Below, one piece after another: positions 47,133 to 54,527 of a DNA stretch of 64,000 bases. The first letter of the stretch is position 1, and each line of letters opens with the position of its first letter. The stretch comes from Gemmatimonadaceae bacterium (GTDB lineage: Bacteria; Gemmatimonadota; Gemmatimonadetes; Gemmatimonadales; Gemmatimonadaceae). Where the stretch lies: NCBI GenBank assembly GCA_011525845.1, contig WYBP01000020.1:1-64000 (forward strand). The letters run 5' to 3'. The notes beneath the pieces were generated by a model. That model had not been told where the DNA came from. It made no database searches and saw only the letters and a program-made list of their open reading frames with translations. A program made the position numbers and the translations under genes.

Positions 47133-47471
47133 TCAGCCGGGCGGCCATTTGAGGCCCCGGCCCCCCAGGACGTGCAGGTGCAGGTGCCCCACCGTCTGCC
47201 CCCCGTCGGCACCGGTGTTGATCACCAGCCGGAACCCGCCCTCGGCGATCCCCTCGGCGCGCGCCACCTCCTGCGCCAGCATCACCATGTCCCCGACCAC
47301 CGGCCCGTCCTCCACGGCGAGCACGGAATCGAAGTGCGCCTTGGGGATCACCAGGACGTGCGTGGGCGCCTTCGGCGCGATGTCGCGGAACGCGAGGCAG
47401 GACGCGCTCTCCGCGACCTTGGCACTCGGGATCTCCCCGCGGACGATGCGACAGAACAGGCAATCGCTCAT
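47133..47471 (-). CDS. HIT-family nucleotide hydrolase/transferase
   Basis: 112 residues from ATG 47471 (ATGA overlap with rsmE). MSDCLFCRIVRGEIPSAKV is the standard start with a CxxC metal-type pair; IAPKAPTHVLVIPKAHFDS follows; the histidine triad is VGHLHLHVLGG near the C-terminus. Such proteins (HinT-like) cleave AMP-linked phosphoramidates and similar compounds. The physiological substrate here is unknown. Confidence 0.94.
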   Translation of the reverse strand: MSDCLFCRIVRGEIPSAKVAESASCLAFRDIAPKAPTHVLVIPKAHFDSVLAVEDGPVVGDMVMLAQEVARAEGIAEGGFRLVINTGADGGQTVGHLHLHVLGGRGLKWPPG

Positions 47472-48265
47472 GTCGTGGACTCCCCACCGGCGGCGCCGGC
47501 GTCGTGGAAGGTGGCGGCCATCCAGTCGAGGGTGGCCCGGACGGCGACGAGCCCAGCCAGGGCCGCGGTCTCGAAGCGCAGGACGTTCCGCGCGAGCGAG
47601 ACGCGCGCGAAGCCGGAGGCCTCCAATGTCGCCAGTTCGGTGGGCTCGAAGCCACCCTCGGGCCCGACGGCGAGCGTCACCGCCGGGATCCCCTGCCCGG
47701 CGCGGAGCGGCCCCTCGAGCGCCGGCCCCAGGGCATCGAAGAGCGGCCGGGCGCCCTGGTCCAGCACGTACGCGACCCCGGGAGGCCGGCCCGCGATCGC
47801 GTGCTCGAGCGAGGCCTCCGGGAAGGTGACGGGCAGCCAGGCGCCGTGGCTCTGCTCGAGGGCGCCCGCCATCCGGGACCGGACCTTCTGCTGGAACGTC
47901 GTGCCCTCCCCCCGCGGGTTCACGTGCTTCGACCGGCGGTAGAGCACCGGGCGCCAGCTCGTGAGCGAGAGCTCCGTCGCCTTCTCCGCGAGCCAGAGCA
48001 TCCGGTCCTTGTCCGCGACCGGCACGAGCAGGTGCACCGCGGGCGCGGCCGCCACCCGCTCGGCGCTCTCGACACTCACGATCGCGTGTCGCTTGGCGAG
48101 CTGCGTCAGCACCCCCTCGCCCCGCGTGCCGGCGCCATCCACCAGCCCCACGCGCACCCCGCTCTCGAGCCGCCGCACGCGCATGTGGTGCGCCGCGTCC
48201 TCTCCGAGCGTCACGGTCCCTGGCGCGGTGAACGGGTCGTCGGTCACGAAGGTCGGCAGGCTCAT
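47468..48265 (-). CDS. rsmE: 16S rRNA (uracil-1498 N3) methyltransferase
   Basis: 265 residues from ATG 48265 (ATGA overlap with prmA). The PUA-like N-terminus has EDAAHHMRVRRLESGVRVGL. The SPOUT knot has LAVGPEGGFEPTELATLE and VSLARNVLRFETAALAGL. ADKDRMLWLAEKATEL is also diagnostic. It methylates U1498 of 16S rRNA. The dnaJ-prmA-rsmE order is common. Confidence 0.95.
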   Translation of the reverse strand: MSLPTFVTDDPFTAPGTVTLGEDAAHHMRVRRLESGVRVGLVDGAGTRGEGVLTQLAKRHAIVSVESAERVAAAPAVHLLVPVADKDRMLWLAEKATELSLTSWRPVLYRRSKHVNPRGEGTTFQQKVRSRMAGALEQSHGAWLPVTFPEASLEHAIAGRPPGVAYVLDQGARPLFDALGPALEGPLRAGQGIPAVTLAVGPEGGFEPTELATLEASGFARVSLARNVLRFETAALAGLVAVRATLDWMAATFHDAGAAGGESTT

Positions 48266-49083
48266 CGACGCACCTGCACCGACCACCACTGTTCCTCGGC
48301 GTCCTCGGCGACCACCTGCCAGCCCCCTTCGGCGAGCGCGCCGAGCATCCGCGGGCGCTCCTCGAGGAGGATCCCGCTGAGGATCGCCGTGCCATCCGGC
48401 GTGAGGGCGGCGGCGATGGCGGGGAGCAGCCCGAGCAGCACACCGGAGATGATGTTCGCGACCACCACCCGCACCGGCGCGACCAGCGGGAGGAGCGTCT
48501 CCGCATCTCCCTCGAGGACGGCCACCGCATGCGCCACCCCGTTCCGCACGACGTTCTCCTCCGCGTTCGCGATGGAGTCGTGGTCGTTCTCGATCGCGAA
48601 GGCGCGTGCTGCGCCGAGCTTCACCGCCGCGATCGCGAGCACGGCACTTCCCGCCCCGAGGTCCGCGACCGCATCCCCGGGACGGATCACCGCCTGCAGG
48701 AGGCGCACGACACCGCGTGTGGTGGGATGCTCCCCGGTGCCGAACGCCATCGCGGGCTCGATGACGACCGTCGTGGACGGATCGCGCCCCTCGGCGAGCC
48801 AGGGGGGCGTGACCGTGAGCGACCCCAGTTGGTGCGCACCGATGCGATCGCGCCATCGCACCGACCAGTCGACGTCCTGCAGCGGCGCATGGGCGCCGAC
48901 GAGATCCTCGTCGGCCGCGCGCACGGCGGCGATGAACGCCTCGGGACTCGCGTCGGGCGCGAGGTGGGTCACCAGGTGCGCGCCATCCTCGTGCACCCCC
49001 TCGGCGCCGGCCTCGAACATCCGCGCCGCGATGGCGGCGGCGAGGTCGGCGCTCGACGGGGTGATCTGGACGCGATGCCACAT
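48262..49083 (-). CDS. prmA: Ribosomal protein L11 methyltransferase
   Basis: 273 residues from ATG 49083, where family similarity begins (MWHRVQITPSSADLAAAI). MAFGTGEHPTTRGVVRLLQ and VADLGAGSAVLAIAAVKLGA form the SAM and substrate site; VVANIISGVLLGLLPAIAA follows. It trimethylates L11. A GTG at 49128 that overlaps the dnaJ stop (GTGA) would add 15 residues and is a real alternative given how often such overlaps occur in this window. Confidence 0.9.
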   Translation of the reverse strand: MWHRVQITPSSADLAAAIAARMFEAGAEGVHEDGAHLVTHLAPDASPEAFIAAVRAADEDLVGAHAPLQDVDWSVRWRDRIGAHQLGSLTVTPPWLAEGRDPSTTVVIEPAMAFGTGEHPTTRGVVRLLQAVIRPGDAVADLGAGSAVLAIAAVKLGAARAFAIENDHDSIANAEENVVRNGVAHAVAVLEGDAETLLPLVAPVRVVVANIISGVLLGLLPAIAAALTPDGTAILSGILLEERPRMLGALAEGGWQVVAEDAEEQWWSVQVRR

Positions 49084-49124
49084 GGGACGGTGGGTGAAGG
49101 GAGGCAGATGTGACCCGGGTGGTG

Positions 49125-50249
49125 TCACCCGGAGATCACTTCCTTCATCTTCGCCCAGAATCCCTTCGCGCGCTTCTCGGGGGGCTTCGCCTGCACCTCG
49201 TGCAGCTGCTCGATCAGGCGCTCCTCCTCGCGGTCGAGGTCCTGGGGCGTCCAGACCTGCACGCGGGCGTGGAGGTCGCCCACGCCGCTCGCGTTCACGC
49301 GCGGCAGGCCGCGGCCCCGGAGCGTGAACACCTCCCCGCTCTGCGTCCCCGCCGGGATGCGGAGCGTCAGCGGCCCCGTCACGCCCGGCACGTCGACGTC
49401 GGCGCCGAGCACCACCTGGGGATAGGTGACCAGCACCTCGCAGTAGAGGTCCTCGCCATCGCGCTCGAACCGGTCGTCCTCGAGCACGTCGAAGACGACG
49501 ATCACGTCGCCCCGCGGCCCGCCGCGCACCCCGGCGTTCCCCACGCCGCGCAGGTGCATGTACTGGCCGCTCGAGACGCCCGCCGGGACCTTGAGCTCGA
49601 TCTCGTGCTCACCGCGCTGCCGTCCCTCGCCGCGGCACGACTTGCAGGGGCTCGTGATCGTCACGCCCTCGCCGCGACACGCCGGGCAGGGCGCCACGCT
49701 CACGAACTGCCCGAAGAAGCTCTGCTGCGCCCGCCGCACCTCGCCCTGCCCCGCGCAGGTCGCGCAGCGCTGCGCGGTGGTGCCGGGCTCCGCCCCCTTC
49801 CCCGAGCAGCGGTCGCAGGGATCGAGGAGCTTGAGCTTCACTTTCTTCGTGATGCCGGTGGCGACCTCGAGCATCGTGAGGTCGAGGTCCAGCTTCACGT
49901 CGGCGCCCGAGCGCGGCGACGACTGCTGCCGGCCGCCGGCACCGAAGAGGTCGCCGAAGCCGAAGTCGCGCATGAAGATGTTGAGCGCCTCGGAGAGGTC
50001 CACGTGGTGGAACCCCTGCCCGCCGCCGCCGCGCAGTCCGGCCTCACCGTAGCGATCGTACGCGGCGCGCTTCTGCGGGTCGCGCAGCACGTCGTACGCC
50101 TCGGTGAGCGACTTGAACTTCTCCTCCGCCTCCTTCGATCCCCCGTTCTTGTCGGGGTGGTACTGCATCGCGAGCTTGCGATACGCCTGCTTGATCTCGT
50201 CGTCGGAGGCGGTCTTCGGGACGCCGAGCGCGGAGTAGAAATCAGCCAT
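49125..50249 (-). CDS. dnaJ: Chaperone protein DnaJ
   Basis: 374 residues from ATG 50249. The J domain (1-70) has the HPD triad in LAMQYHPDKNGGSKEAEE. A short Gly/Phe-rich region is followed by four zinc-binding repeats: CDRCSGKG, CATCAGQG, CPACRGEG and CKSCRGEG. The substrate-binding C-terminal domains end GFWAKMKEVISG. It is a co-chaperone for DnaK, which is not in the window. It is preceded by a Ser/Thr kinase and hrcA; a TAACTT element at 50300-50305 may give it its own promoter. Confidence 0.96.
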   Translation of the reverse strand: MADFYSALGVPKTASDDEIKQAYRKLAMQYHPDKNGGSKEAEEKFKSLTEAYDVLRDPQKRAAYDRYGEAGLRGGGGQGFHHVDLSEALNIFMRDFGFGDLFGAGGRQQSSPRSGADVKLDLDLTMLEVATGITKKVKLKLLDPCDRCSGKGAEPGTTAQRCATCAGQGEVRRAQQSFFGQFVSVAPCPACRGEGVTITSPCKSCRGEGRQRGEHEIELKVPAGVSSGQYMHLRGVGNAGVRGGPRGDVIVVFDVLEDDRFERDGEDLYCEVLVTYPQVVLGADVDVPGVTGPLTLRIPAGTQSGEVFTLRGRGLPRVNASGVGDLHARVQVWTPQDLDREEERLIEQLHEVQAKPPEKRAKGFWAKMKEVISG

Positions 50250-50299
50250 TATTGAACGCCAGAGTGACACGGGCCTGCCGGCATGGCGGGCTCGCGCGA

Positions 50300-50305: not shown

Positions 50306-50356
50306 GTGGCTAGTCGAGCAAGCCGGGTGCCACACCGGGACGGCCGACGAAACCCC

Positions 50357-50374: not shown

Positions 50375-52282
50375 CTACGCCGGTGTCCTCGCGATCTCCC
50401 GCGGGAAGCGCAGCGCCCGTTCCACCTCGCCGCGGGCGTCGATCAGGCGTGCGACCTGATCCGCCACCTCGGTCGCCAGGCCGACCTGCGTCGTCACGCC
50501 CTCCACCGTGCCGGTCCCGGCGTGCAGTCGCAGGAGGTCCAGCCGGATCCCCTCGAGCAGCGCGACCACCTCGGACAACTTGCGCTTGGCCTCGTCGCGC
50601 ATCACGCGATATCCCTCGTACGCGTCGGTGGCGCCCGCCTCGCCGGCCGCGGCCAGGAGGTCCACCAGCCGGTCGTGCTGCTCACGGAGCCGTTGCGCGT
50701 CATCCTGGAGTCGATGCAGCACGGCCGGCACGTCACCCAGCGCCTCCCGCGTCGCGGGCGGGAGCTGATCGAAGAGCTCCTCGGCGGCCACGCTGAGCGA
50801 GAGCTCCGTGGCACGGTGGGTCATGGGCCCGAGCCCCGCGCGGCGCTTCGTCAGTCGACCCGCCAGCCCGAACAGCGAGCGCCCCAGGCGGCCAGTCCAG
50901 ACGCGGCCCCAGAACGACGTGTCGAGATCCTCGTAGCGTTGCACGCGCATTCCGTGTCCGACCAGCGTGAGCATGGAGCTCGTGATCGAGAGGAAGAACC
51001 AGGTGGCGAGCGCGTCCGTGGCTCTCCCGCCGAGCGGCAACACCGTCACGCCCGCGACCAGGACCGGGAGCGAGATCCCGGCCGACACGGTCGACGCCAC
51101 CGCGGCCCCGCGCCAGATCCTGTCCCACGGCCCTCTCACGCGCCCCTCGTGCGCGGTGCGCTCCTCGCTGCCCTGCTCGAGCACGGAGCGGAACGCGGGA
51201 GCGAGGTCGCGATGCGTGAATCCGGCCGCGACGAGCGCCCGCGCCGACTGTACCAGGTACGCGAGCGGCATGCCCGCGGCGCCGAGCGCCAGCGTGCCGA
51301 AGCCGGCGAGCGCGCCGTACACGGATCCCACGCCGACCGCGACGAAGGGGAGGATCGTCGCGCCCACGAGTGCGCCCGCCCCGTCGACGCGACCGGAACG
51401 CTTGACGAAGTCGCGCAGAAGGGCCGGCACCTCCCGGCGGACCTCGACCGCGACCGACAGCTGCTCGGCCAGCGCAGCGGCATCGCTCGGTCGGTGGTCG
51501 GGATCCTTCGCCAGGCAGCGGTCCACGAGGGCGGCGAGTCGCCGCGACACGGGCGCCCCGACCGTCGCGAGACTCGGCGGTACCGCCGTGACCTGCTTGG
51601 CCAGCGTCTCCGTGTGCGAGGCACCCTCGAACACGAGCCGTCCGGTGAAGGCATAGAAGGCCGTCGCGCCGAGCGAGTAGATGTCACTCCGCGCGTCGAC
51701 CGGCTTCCCCAGCGCCTGTTCCGGACTCATGAACTCCGGGGTTCCGGCCACGCCCTCCGCGGCGAGGTCGCCGGTGGCCGCCGCGATCCCGAAGTCCGCC
51801 ACGAGCGCGCGCCCCGAGACCGCCTCGAGCAGGATGTTGTCCGGCTTGACGTCGCGGTGGACGAGCCCCTGCCCGTGCGCGTGCGAGAGGGCCCACGCGG
51901 CCTCCTTGAGCACCCGCGAGCCGTCCGACGCCGAGAGCGGTCCGCGGGAGCGCACGCGGTGCGCGAGCGTCTCCCCGTCGACGTACGCCATCACGAAGAA
52001 CACGAACCCGCCCACCTCGTCGACCGCGTGTATCGGGATGATGTTCGGGTGCGAGAGCTTCGCGGCGAGACGCGCCTCCCGGAGGAATCGAGCGCGCAGG
52101 TCGGGGTCGCCGGCGCGCTCCGGCGGGAGGAGCTTGATCGCCACGAGGCGGTCGAGGTGGACCTCGCGCGCGAGGAAGACGATCCCCATGCCACCGCGTC
52201 CGAGCTCCCGGTCGAGCGAGTACCGCCCCGCGACCGCGAACTGGAAATCGAGAAAGAGCGAGTCGAGCTCGGCCCCGGGCAT
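50375..52282 (-). CDS. Membrane serine/threonine protein kinase (PknB-like)
   Basis: 635 residues from ATG 52282. The N-terminal kinase domain is complete: LGRGGMGIVFLA (P-loop), VAIKLLPPE (Lys), LVHRDVKPDNILLE (catalytic Asp), VADFGIAAATG, and GTPEFMSPEQALGKPVDARSD. From about 300 to 450 there are probably four membrane helices (AGALVGATILPFVAVGVG, GISLPVLVAGVTVLPL and others). The last 150 residues are helical and charged (LHRLQDDAQRLREQHDRLVD), likely cytoplasmic coiled coil. There is no PASTA or other extracellular sensor. It sits between hrcA and dnaJ where grpE or dnaK often stand. The substrate is unknown. Confidence 0.93.
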   Translation of the reverse strand: MPGAELDSLFLDFQFAVAGRYSLDRELGRGGMGIVFLAREVHLDRLVAIKLLPPERAGDPDLRARFLREARLAAKLSHPNIIPIHAVDEVGGFVFFVMAYVDGETLAHRVRSRGPLSASDGSRVLKEAAWALSHAHGQGLVHRDVKPDNILLEAVSGRALVADFGIAAATGDLAAEGVAGTPEFMSPEQALGKPVDARSDIYSLGATAFYAFTGRLVFEGASHTETLAKQVTAVPPSLATVGAPVSRRLAALVDRCLAKDPDHRPSDAAALAEQLSVAVEVRREVPALLRDFVKRSGRVDGAGALVGATILPFVAVGVGSVYGALAGFGTLALGAAGMPLAYLVQSARALVAAGFTHRDLAPAFRSVLEQGSEERTAHEGRVRGPWDRIWRGAAVASTVSAGISLPVLVAGVTVLPLGGRATDALATWFFLSITSSMLTLVGHGMRVQRYEDLDTSFWGRVWTGRLGRSLFGLAGRLTKRRAGLGPMTHRATELSLSVAAEELFDQLPPATREALGDVPAVLHRLQDDAQRLREQHDRLVDLLAAAGEAGATDAYEGYRVMRDEAKRKLSEVVALLEGIRLDLLRLHAGTGTVEGVTTQVGLATEVADQVARLIDARGEVERALRFPREIARTPA

Positions 52283-52324
52283 CGCCTCAGTATGCGGTCC
52301 GGGCGCGGCGGCCGCGAGGAGGGC

Positions 52325-53368
52325 CTATCCCAGCAGGTCGGTGACCAGGGACGACGTGTGCGTCACGAGGGAGATGACCTTCTCGTACGGCATGCGCGTG
52401 GGGCCGATCACGCCGATGACGCCCGTCAGGCCCCCCGCTCGGTACTCGGCCGTCACGAGGGTCAGCCCACCGAGGAGCTGCGAGCCGTGCTCGTCGCCGA
52501 TGGTGATCGAGACGCCCGGCACCGACGCGCGACCGCGGAGGACCTCCGCCAGGTGCGTCCGGGTCTCCGTGAGCGCGATGAGCCGCTTCATCGACTCGCC
52601 CGTGGCGAACTCGGGCTTCTCGGCCAGCACGGAGGCCTGTCCGAGGACCACTGCGTCCTCGCCGCGCACGCCGGCCACGTCGAAGAGCTGCTCGCCTTCC
52701 TGCAGGAAGATGTTGAGGAGCTCGGAGGCGCCGCCGCCGGGAGCGACGTCGCGCAGCCGCGCCCCGAGCGTGGTGCGCACCTCCGCGAGCGACAGGCCGC
52801 CCAGGCGCTCGTTGAGGACCCGCTGCACCTCGGCGATGGCGTCGTCCGCGATCTCGCCCCTGATCTCGATGAAGATCGTGCGCACCCCGCCACCGGCGAG
52901 CGTCAGCACGAGGATCATCTTCTCGGAGGAGAGCCGCACCAGCTCGAGCTTCTGCAGGACGGCCTGGTCGAGTCGCGGTCCGAGCGCCACGCCCAGTTCC
53001 TGCGAGAGGACGCCGAGCGACTGGGCGGCCCGGCGGAGGATGCTCTCGATCGCGGACCCACCACCGCCGATCTGCTCCGCGAGCCGGTCGCGGTCCCGAA
53101 CGGTGAGCGGCTGCACGCGGATCAGGGCGTCCACATAGAGCCGGTACGCCTTGTCCGTCGGGATCCGCCCCGCCGACGTATGCGGATGGTAGAGGAACCC
53201 CTTCTCCTCGAGGTCGGCCATCGTGTTGCGGATGGTGGCCGGAGAGACCCCCAGGCCGAAGCGCTTGGCGATGGTGCGCGAGCCTGCCGGCTCCGCGGTC
53301 TCCACGTATGACCGGACGACGGCCTCGAGCACGTTCCGTTCGCGTTCGGTCAGCTCGAGGGAGGCCAT
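52325..53368 (-). CDS. hrcA: Heat-inducible transcription repressor HrcA
   Basis: 347 residues from ATG 53368. The winged-helix N-terminus has LTERERNVLEAVVRSYVETA, GSRTIAKRFGLGVSPATIRN and TMADLEEKGFLYHPHTSAGR. The GAF-like core and the C-terminus (GVIGVIGPTRMPYEKVISLV) are typical. HrcA represses chaperone genes by binding CIRCE. I found no CIRCE sequence next to hrcA or dnaJ in the window. It starts 10 bases after the hemW stop. Confidence 0.96.
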   Translation of the reverse strand: MASLELTERERNVLEAVVRSYVETAEPAGSRTIAKRFGLGVSPATIRNTMADLEEKGFLYHPHTSAGRIPTDKAYRLYVDALIRVQPLTVRDRDRLAEQIGGGGSAIESILRRAAQSLGVLSQELGVALGPRLDQAVLQKLELVRLSSEKMILVLTLAGGGVRTIFIEIRGEIADDAIAEVQRVLNERLGGLSLAEVRTTLGARLRDVAPGGGASELLNIFLQEGEQLFDVAGVRGEDAVVLGQASVLAEKPEFATGESMKRLIALTETRTHLAEVLRGRASVPGVSITIGDEHGSQLLGGLTLVTAEYRAGGLTGVIGVIGPTRMPYEKVISLVTHTSSLVTDLLG

Positions 53369-53378
53369 AAGTCGAAGA

Positions 53379-54527
53379 TTACGAACGACTTCTAGCGGAA
53401 GTCAAGGCGACGGCCAGGGCGTCGAGCCGGAGCCAGCCGAGCGGTGTGAGCTGGAGGCGATCGGCCGCGACCCGCGCCCAGCCACGCTCGATCCATGGAG
53501 TAACCGTCATCGCGTCATATTGACGGATACTAAGTCCGTCGGTCGTCCGGAGGCCGAGGTAGACAGACTCCGCGAGCCGGTCGTTCTCCGACAGATCCTC
53601 ACTTCCCTCCAGCGGATCAGCGCCGGCCGCGACCGCGTCCGACCAGGCGGCGTAAGCCGCTATGTTCCAACGCCTTGCCCTGCCATCGAAGCCGTGGGCC
53701 GACGGACCCAGTCCCAGGTAGCTGGCCCCCGACCAGTAGGCGGAGTTGTGCACGGCCCGGTGGCCGGGCCGGCCGTAGTTGGAGACCTCGTAGTGCTCGT
53801 ACCCGGCGAGTCCCAGCGCACGATGTGCCGCCAGGAACTCTGCCTCGAACCGCTCCTCGGGCGCCTCGGCCACCTCGCCGCGGGCGGACCACCGTCCGAG
53901 TGGGGTCTTCGGCTCGACCGTGAGTCCATAGAGGGAGAGGTGGTCGGGCTCCAGTTCAAGGGCGAGCTCGATGTCCCGCGTCCAGTCGCGCTCGAGCTGG
54001 TCGGGAAGGGCGAAGATCAGGTCGAGGGAAAGGCTCCCGATCCCCCCGGCGCGCAGGAGCTGGGCCGCACGAACGGAATCCTCAGGTCCGTGTTCGCGGT
54101 GCATCCATTGAAGGACCGCCGGGTCGAATGACTGGACGCCGAGCGAGGCTCGATTGACGCCTGCGGCCGCCCAGGCGGAGACTGCCTGCTCCGTCACGTC
54201 CTCCGGATTGACCTCGATCGTGATCTCCGGATTCCCGGGAAGCGTGGACAAGTTGTCCACACCGAGTCGATGTGCGAATCCCGCCAGCAGTGCCGGGATC
54301 CCGTGCTGGCCCAGCTTGGACGGGGTGCCGCCGCCGAGGTATAGCGACTTGAGCGACCGCGGATCGAGGTCGACGGACCTGGTTGCCAACTCCGCCATAA
54401 TGGCGTCATTGAACGCACGCCACGGGACGGTTCGCCGGACGGCGATCGCGAAGTCGCAGTAGCTGCAGCGGCGTCCGCAGAAGGGGACGTGGACGTAGAT
54501 GTGACGTGTCGGGCCGGAGGAGCTCAT
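53379..54527 (-). CDS. hemW: HemW-type radical SAM protein (heme chaperone, formerly HemN-like)
   Basis: 382 residues from ATG 54527. The iron-sulfur motif is IYVHVPFCGRRCSYCDFAIA (CxxxCxxC with Tyr before the last Cys, as in HemW). SLYLGGGTPSKL, IEVNPEDVTEQAV, NRASLGVQSFDPAVL and LSLDLIFALPDQ follow. HemW proteins bind heme and pass it to respiratory enzymes; they lack the coproporphyrinogen oxidase activity of true HemN. A hemW-hrcA neighbourhood is frequent in bacteria. Confidence 0.94.
   Translation of the reverse strand: MSSSGPTRHIYVHVPFCGRRCSYCDFAIAVRRTVPWRAFNDAIMAELATRSVDLDPRSLKSLYLGGGTPSKLGQHGIPALLAGFAHRLGVDNLSTLPGNPEITIEVNPEDVTEQAVSAWAAAGVNRASLGVQSFDPAVLQWMHREHGPEDSVRAAQLLRAGGIGSLSLDLIFALPDQLERDWTRDIELALELEPDHLSLYGLTVEPKTPLGRWSARGEVAEAPEERFEAEFLAAHRALGLAGYEHYEVSNYGRPGHRAVHNSAYWSGASYLGLGPSAHGFDGRARRWNIAAYAAWSDAVAAGADPLEGSEDLSENDRLAESVYLGLRTTDGLSIRQYDAMTVTPWIERGWARVAADRLQLTPLGWLRLDALAVALTSARSRS
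53387..53403. repeat. Inverted repeat upstream of hrcA, inside the hemW end
   Basis: GACTTC and GAAGTC arms with a 5-base centre, about 20 bases before the hrcA start. A second pair, AAGTCG (53369-53374) and CGACTT (53386-53391), overlaps it. It is not the CIRCE sequence. It could be a local operator or only an RNA stem. Confidence 0.4.

Follow-up and report, generated by a model that had tools for sequence, protein, structure and literature searches.

A membrane Ser/Thr kinase gene at the hrcA-dnaJ junction and a candidate sigma-54 promoter of dnaJ in a genus of Gemmatimonadaceae

A stretch of 64,000 nucleotides (nt) from the genome of a Gemmatimonadaceae bacterium (assembly GCA_011525845.1, contig WYBP01000020.1, positions 1 to 64,000; hereafter the window) harbors a heat-shock gene cluster in which a gene for a membrane Ser/Thr kinase lies between hrcA and dnaJ, and in which a sigma-54 type element precedes dnaJ. 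All genes and elements of the cluster are located on the minus strand. The heat-shock repressor gene hrcA (52325..53368, 347 residues; PF01628, E 1e-45; 275.1 bits against NCBIfam TIGR00331 with a cut-off of 197.2) is followed by the B-type kinase gene (50375..52282, 635 residues, PF00069) and by the chaperone gene dnaJ (49125..50249, PF00226, PF00684 and PF01556), whose product of 374 residues scores 401.3 bits against TIGR02349 (cut-off 377.2). The mechanical open reading frame of dnaJ begins earlier, at a GTG at position 50270; the ATG start is used throughout. The kinase thus replaces an otherwise near-direct hrcA-dnaJ junction, confirming the gene order given by the original prediction. 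At its upstream end the cluster begins with a hemW-like radical SAM gene (53379..54527, Pfam Radical_SAM and HemN_C), found 5' of hrcA in 13 of 14 loci of the source genome's genus (hereafter the genus), the contig of the 14th beginning within hrcA. Downstream, prmA (48262..49128, PF06325, E 6e-49) overlaps the end of dnaJ, and rsmE (47468..48268, PF04452, E 6e-25) overlaps the end of prmA.

Because only 42 nt separate hrcA from the kinase gene, both are probably read on one transcript, whereas the gap between the kinase gene and the dnaJ ATG measures 125 nt. A simple pattern scan of the minus strand between positions 49000 and 54900 returned no sigma-70-like site before dnaJ and no terminator-like site. 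The hairpin originally proposed to precede dnaJ was rejected as not significant (z -1.19), with 19 of 200 shuffled sequences folding as well or better. A recent foreign insertion was likewise considered and set aside, as the GC content of the kinase stretch (0.69-0.75) is similar to that of its flanks and leaves no compositional trace of recent transfer.

The kinase domain (residues 21-272, 51467..52222) matches PF00069 with 154.1 bits (cut-off 31.7, E 6e-45) and contains the motifs GxGxxG, VAIK, HRDVKPxN, DFG and SPEQ. PknB chains are among its closest solved structures, and the intact motifs predict an active, PknB-like Hanks-type enzyme. All five Hanks catalytic motifs are likewise present in the four tandem kinase copies of two related genomes, G064 and G069 (G numbers denote sampled genomes, L numbers loci). 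Genome-wide, 33 Pkinase matches were found, 32 of them above the cut-off, with two of the 33 being pieces of one 626-residue frame. An AlphaFold model of residues 285-635 is helical throughout (mean predicted local distance difference test score 82.4, predicted template-modelling score 0.51); its hydrophobic region folds into two long hairpins of helices (residues about 302-450, 50933..51379), presumed to form four membrane helices, and a helical tail follows. The tail (residues about 488-625, 50408..50821) carries the motifs THRATE and LLxxHAG, which are conserved in alignments of relatives. Hairpins and tail agree with the membrane helices and helical tail proposed before, although the membrane crossing itself is inferred from the model; no extracytoplasmic domain is seen in the modelled residues, as had also been anticipated. 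For this C-terminal part, no Pfam-A family scored above cut-off and Foldseek returned no match at E <= 0.001. Alignments by VIA-align to designed repeats and helical bundles, with Z up to 10.5, fall within the chance range and were discarded as a fold assignment.

The distribution of the gene order was surveyed across the family. HrcA is present in 55 of 59 sampled family genomes and in 14 of 17 genomes of the genus. Leaving out one fragmentary HrcA-bearing genome (G028), 67 loci were read and 64 counted, 14 from the genus and 50 from other genera, after dropping three in which hrcA is truncated by a contig end (L053, L054, L085). The original prediction had expected hrcA to be followed by grpE, dnaK or dnaJ; in this family dnaJ is the norm, rather than the other two. 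In the other genera the hrcA-dnaJ gap is shorter than 200 bp at 47 of 50 loci, 324 bp at one and above 2 kb at two, so that gaps of at least 200 bp occur at 3/50 loci, compared with 11/14 in the genus. Two genus genomes, G060 and G068 (L181, L182), have a gap of only 5 bp. A kinase gene occupies the junction at four of the 14 genus loci (the window, G064, G065 and G069), with two kinases in tandem in G064 and G069, and at none of the 50 others. The order is thus not unique to one strain, as the original prediction had asked to be checked, and it does not extend across other genera, where the family-wide order expected of a dedicated HrcA/DnaJ kinase module was not found. In a tree built from HrcA, DnaJ, HemW, PrmA and RsmE, the four carriers form one clade together with G071 (support 85/78), which has no kinase at the locus.

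Kinases are not the only occupants of this position. A DUF218 gene (Pfam) lies there in G049, with similar frames in G061 and G070, and an antisense 23S_rRNA_IVP gene (PF05635) is found in the gap of G062 (L176), with a similar frame in G072 (L178). The hrcA-dnaJ junction tolerates inserts of several kinds, since sister lineages carry unrelated genes in the same slot, and this argues against a kinase dedicated to HrcA or DnaJ. In two genomes labelled g13, G040 and G012, other genes were observed between hrcA and dnaJ (L044:3857-6163, L045:3470-6316) that appear glycosyltransferase-like by eye; one g13 junction gene was compared with Pfam and gave no match at E <= 0.001.

An alignment of the kinase-dnaJ gap across relatives exposed a conserved TGGCACC-N4-TTGC sequence. 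In the window this is the element TGGCACCCGGCTTGC (50318..50332), located 83 nt 5' of the dnaJ ATG, or 62 nt if dnaJ begins at the GTG. It follows the pattern TGGCAC-N5-TTGC with GG-N10-GC spacing, which is the textbook sigma-54 -24/-12 consensus, and matches it at 10 of 10 letters. Within 105 nt of dnaJ, nine of the 14 genus loci (the window, G069, G064, G065, G071, G023, G061, G070 and G049) carry the element with nine or ten letters at 82-94 nt. A wider 200-nt scan added a nine-letter match at 193 nt in G062, and none of the dnaJ upstream regions outside the genus scored above eight; random 200-nt windows of the same loci reached at least nine letters in 8 of 2010 cases. The element keeps its position whether the gap holds a kinase gene, a DUF218 gene or no coding insert, and it is the only match in the window at up to one mismatch, so that hrcA has none. 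A second conserved block, of TTAGCTTCC type, is located 3' of it. Consensus letters are hence kept by relatives, as a sigma-54 promoter would require, and dnaJ likely has its own, separate promoter of this type in the genus. The possible separate dnaJ promoter of the original prediction is in this respect supported.

Within the 3.58-Mb genome, exact TGGCAC-N5-TTGC matches number five, against one in the reversed control. Four precede genes, namely dnaJ (83 nt), groES (97 nt), grpE (48 nt) and fbp (83 nt), and the fifth is in coding sequence. In the 857 kb that were read, comprising 40 stretches of contigs C3, C10, C21 and C22 in addition to the window (C3, C10 and C21 having been chosen for known exact matches), 18 sites have nine or ten letters together with the GG and GC. 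All ten letters are matched only by the four at the dnaJ, groES, grpE and fbp promoters; of the other 14, 11 are intragenic, one sits 10 nt before a called start and two have no start downstream. The fbp site stands 83 nt 5' of a fructose-1,6-bisphosphatase gene (L408:5678, contig C3). Neither dnaK nor clpB was found by motif search in these 857 kb.

The element is also retained at grpE. Of the 17 genus genomes, 14 have it 47-49 nt 5' of the ATG with 8-10 letters (the sites of G000 and G067, skipped by the gene finder, were taken from a separate scan), G062 has seven letters at 48 nt, and G060 and G068 have none. As a control, 602 ATGs in the 17 grpE loci were scored; 16 have at least eight letters at 45-52 nt, and 14 of these 16 are grpE starts. 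Outside the genus, three of 13 genomes (G001, G009, G045) show the element at 47-50 nt, and G040 and G017 have eight or nine letters at other distances from the called grpE start. G060 and G068 lack both the dnaJ and the grpE elements and may have lost rpoN.

For groES, a sample of 395 genomes of the phylum was examined; TGGC-N7-TTGC followed after 19-21 nt by the core of the controlling inverted repeat of chaperone expression (CIRCE) was found in 10 of 13 genus genomes and in 16 genomes overall. As judged by eye, the reversed control gave 11/395, similar enough to place groES hits outside the genus at background, although two g13 matches also precede groES. Each of the ten genus hits has TTGAC just 5' of the element and TAnnnT three bases 3' of it. 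The source genome has one exact CIRCE core, upstream of groES and just 3' of the groES element, and the window has no CIRCE match at up to three mismatches; CIRCE therefore does not seem to control hrcA, the kinase gene or dnaJ. RpoN is encoded with its activator-interacting, core and DNA-binding domains (PF00309, PF04963, PF04552) all above cut-off, and scores 422.9 bits against TIGR02395 (cut-off 277.35). As for an enhancer-binding protein, a motif search of the 857 kb identified one activator-like candidate, whose start resembles a response regulator by eye. Collectively, these positions suggest sigma-54 control of dnaJ and grpE, and perhaps also of groESL.

To place the kinases of the junction, two trees were calculated. 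The first, with 26 rows, joins the window kinase to kinB, the second kinase of G064 and G069 (support 99/98), a grouping that recurs in the second, a quick tree extended to 55 rows (99). In the 26-row tree the G065 kinase falls into the clade of the first kinases (kinA) of these genomes (100/99), so that a B and an A type are distinguished. With 55 rows, the G065 kinase clusters not directly with kinA but with four kinases from g13 (96), of which three are near grpE-dnaJ and the fourth lies at the end of its contig. The g13 genomes G148, G150 and G012 (L243, L251, L263) have an A-type kinase 3-5 kb from grpE-dnaJ, so that two genera have this kinase type close to dnaJ, each at a different dnaJ locus. 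The 55-row tree weakens an earlier reading of a single gain of the pair with subsequent losses; one or two gains in this weakly supported subclade were followed by a loss in G071, and an exchange of the A type with g13 at some point is likely. The sequences further indicate purifying selection on the kinases. Between G064 and G069, kinB has a nonsynonymous rate (dN) of 0.14 and a synonymous rate (dS) of 1.0, and the window kinase compared with these two copies gives dN/dS of 0.29 and 0.37 at dS near 1, ratios that are rough, as synonymous sites approach saturation. The kinase evolves faster than its neighbor: between the window and G064, dN is 0.31 for kinB versus 0.11 for HrcA.

Close relatives of the kinase (E <= 1e-30) are found in 49 of 179 family genomes. 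A collection of 84,980 species, the scan of which may omit records of the source genome itself, yielded 52 loci, 48 titled Gemmatimonadota or a subgroup, three titled only 'bacterium' and one a Chloroflexota metagenome-assembled genome (L278), perhaps reflecting a mis-binned contig or transfer. Within up to 6 kb on each side, 46 of the 52 match none of hrcA, dnaJ, hemW, prmA and rsmE; the remaining six comprise four at the hrcA locus and two near another dnaJ. In four genomes labelled g2, a related kinase lies in reversed orientation just beyond rsmE of the hrcA-dnaJ-prmA-rsmE region. In three of these it is sister to the B type in the 26-row tree (89/86), a placement not recovered with 55 rows. 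By a rough post hoc estimate, three dnaJ-near placements among at least 12 are somewhat above chance, and they may not be independent. In 19 of 55 neighborhoods (54 fetched loci and the window) the gene after the kinase encodes a protein of ~455 residues that has a single hydrophobic stretch, for example at L245:6120-7469, L236:2145-3560 and L257:8695-10086 and at 16 further loci, L160 and L247 being counted from coordinates as the gene caller skipped the kinase there. Three members of this protein gave no Pfam match above cut-off and none is called beside the window kinase; it may be an old partner of the kinase. Both this membrane protein from other genera and the kinase tail, which has no Pfam match above cut-off, deserve a name.

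To these observations we assign, with a probability of about 0.58, the following reading: the kinase was inserted into a permissive junction, dnaJ has its own sigma-54 promoter, and part of the chaperone set is linked to sigma-54. The kinase gene resembles more an insertion confined to one lineage, at a site open to inserts, than a regulator of the heat-shock response. A- and B-type kinases would have entered the hrcA-dnaJ junction within one subclade of the genus, through one or two gains with later losses, the source genome retaining only a B-type copy. This protein would be anchored by its presumed membrane hairpins, with catalytic domain and tail in the cytoplasm, and would be read together with hrcA, serving no dedicated role in the regulation of HrcA or DnaJ. 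The junction may tolerate inserts partly because dnaJ probably has, in this genus, its own sigma-54 type promoter. The same element precedes grpE and also groES, where it is nested in a sigma-70-like promoter next to CIRCE, so that a portion of the chaperone genes is probably transcribed by sigma-54 RNA polymerase together with an enhancer-binding protein.

Several observations weigh against this reading. Support for the carriers' subclade (85/78) is under the usual mark, and within the kinA clade the G065 copy pairs with the g13 kinase of G012 (100/98); a single gain of the kinase pair is possible and not secure, and some link between kinases and dnaJ genes is conceivable given their nearness. 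The dnaJ element is missing from five of the 14 genus loci (G060, G062, G066, G068, G072). Two of these, G062 and G072, hold an insert without an element near dnaJ, and the element is likewise missing from the two g13 loci whose junction is occupied, which shows that inserts can do without this promoter. Shuffled windows contain on average 2.23 matches at up to one mismatch, and 89 of 100 have at least one; as shuffles match this often, the presence of the element is in itself unremarkable, and its position and conservation carry the claim. Similarly, by our own estimate five exact matches are about what chance gives for a ten-letter pattern at this genome size. Their number therefore means little, and what matters is that three of the five stand at chaperone starts. 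Finally, groES could be served alone by the TTGAC-17-TAnnnT promoter with which its element overlaps, and because of this sigma-70-like overlap the assignment of groES to sigma-54 is ambiguous.

An alternative that retains some plausibility, though clearly the less probable, is that the element before dnaJ is the site of another sigma factor or regulator, or is non-functional, dnaJ being read through from hrcA and the kinase gene. The five genus loci without the element fit this explanation, as does the conserved sigma-70-like promoter around the groES copy, and the TTAGCTTCC type block after the dnaJ element could belong to another promoter. However, letters and GG-N10-GC spacing are those of the textbook sigma-54 consensus, and this spacing is constant between dnaJ and grpE, whereas the distance to the next conserved block differs. 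The genome moreover encodes RpoN, and the position at grpE is fixed in 14 of 17 genomes.

The original prediction had instead read the gene order as a regulatory unit in which the membrane-bound kinase would respond to envelope stress by phosphorylating HrcA, DnaJ or some other part of the heat-shock system. We regard this as unlikely. In its favor are the occurrence of the order in four species of one genus, in two of them with tandem kinases, the purifying selection on kinB, the related kinases adjoining the same operon region in the four g2 genomes, and the g13 kinases 3-5 kb from grpE-dnaJ, which form one clade with the A-type kinases of the hrcA locus. Against these stand the absence of the order from all 50 loci of other genera and of the kinase from G071, the unrelated genes in the same slot, and the 46 of 52 relatives' loci without any of the five neighbor genes. 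A conserved membrane protein follows the kinase instead in 19 of 55 neighborhoods, dN of the kinase is nearly threefold that of HrcA, and the window contains no CIRCE. Control of HrcA or DnaJ by the kinase is thus not supported by these comparisons.

Sigma-54 requires an activator, and Myxococcus has activators that are linked to kinases; together with the adjacency of kinase and dnaJ element, this could suggest that the kinase acts on the enhancer-binding protein at chaperone promoters in one circuit with the dnaJ promoter, an idea we consider very improbable, since the dnaJ element is kept without a kinase at the locus in G023, G049, G061, G070 and G071, the grpE element is kept across the genus, and the sole activator-like protein identified by motif in the 857 kb has, by eye, a response-regulator-like start. 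Equally remote is its extension to a kinase-gated heat-shock circuit, in which groESL, grpE and the hrcA-linked dnaJ depend on sigma-54 and kinases phosphorylate the enhancer-binding protein in response to envelope signals.

Bacteria are usually described as raising chaperone levels via an RpoH-like sigma factor or by lifting repressors. If the preferred reading of an insertion beside a sigma-54 driven dnaJ is true, the heat-shock response of Gemmatimonadaceae would be activator-dependent, and the controlling signal would change. The locus also suggests that, where dnaJ is served by a separate promoter, the junction may become free to collect unrelated genes, and it cautions against inferring regulation from gene neighborhood alone. 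Among the literature matches listed, none describes chaperones of Gemmatimonadota as controlled by sigma-54 or a kinase located between hrcA and dnaJ.

With regard to known systems, the kinase resembles PknB/Stk1-type Hanks kinases in that its kinase domain has all catalytic motifs. The best solved match is the Ser/Thr kinase 3orm (E 1.5e-49) and the best named PknB match is 1mru (E 6.9e-49), with many PknB chains among the closest. Against NF033483, the family of Stk1/PknB kinases with PASTA domains, it scores 260.9 bits, below the cut-off of 450, in an alignment spanning only residues 17-283. Unlike PASTA kinases, it has no PASTA or other outer domain that could be seen; this place is taken by the pair of presumed membrane hairpins and by the conserved, helical tail, which has no Pfam family above cut-off. 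With the CIRCE/HrcA regulon the genome shares the one exact CIRCE core at groES, and it differs in having none in the window at up to three mismatches. The closest parallel for the promoters is Chlamydia, where hrcA-grpE-dnaK is reported to have a tandem sigma-66/sigma-54 promoter with CIRCE (PMC7482065, PMC8762339). Like Chlamydia hrcA as described there (PMC7482065), groES has here a sigma-54 element in the -35/-10 spacer of a CIRCE-bearing heat-shock operon. In contrast to Chlamydia, the nested element is found at groES, separate elements are present at grpE and dnaJ, and hrcA has none; the phylum is also different. A 2025 survey, the main text of which does not contain the term 'Gemmatimonad', predicted sigma-54 chaperone clusters in Bacteroidota and Planctomycetota (PMC12316311). 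In that survey, the enriched chaperone cluster includes GroES, GrpE and DnaJ, the same proteins whose genes are preceded by the elements described here.

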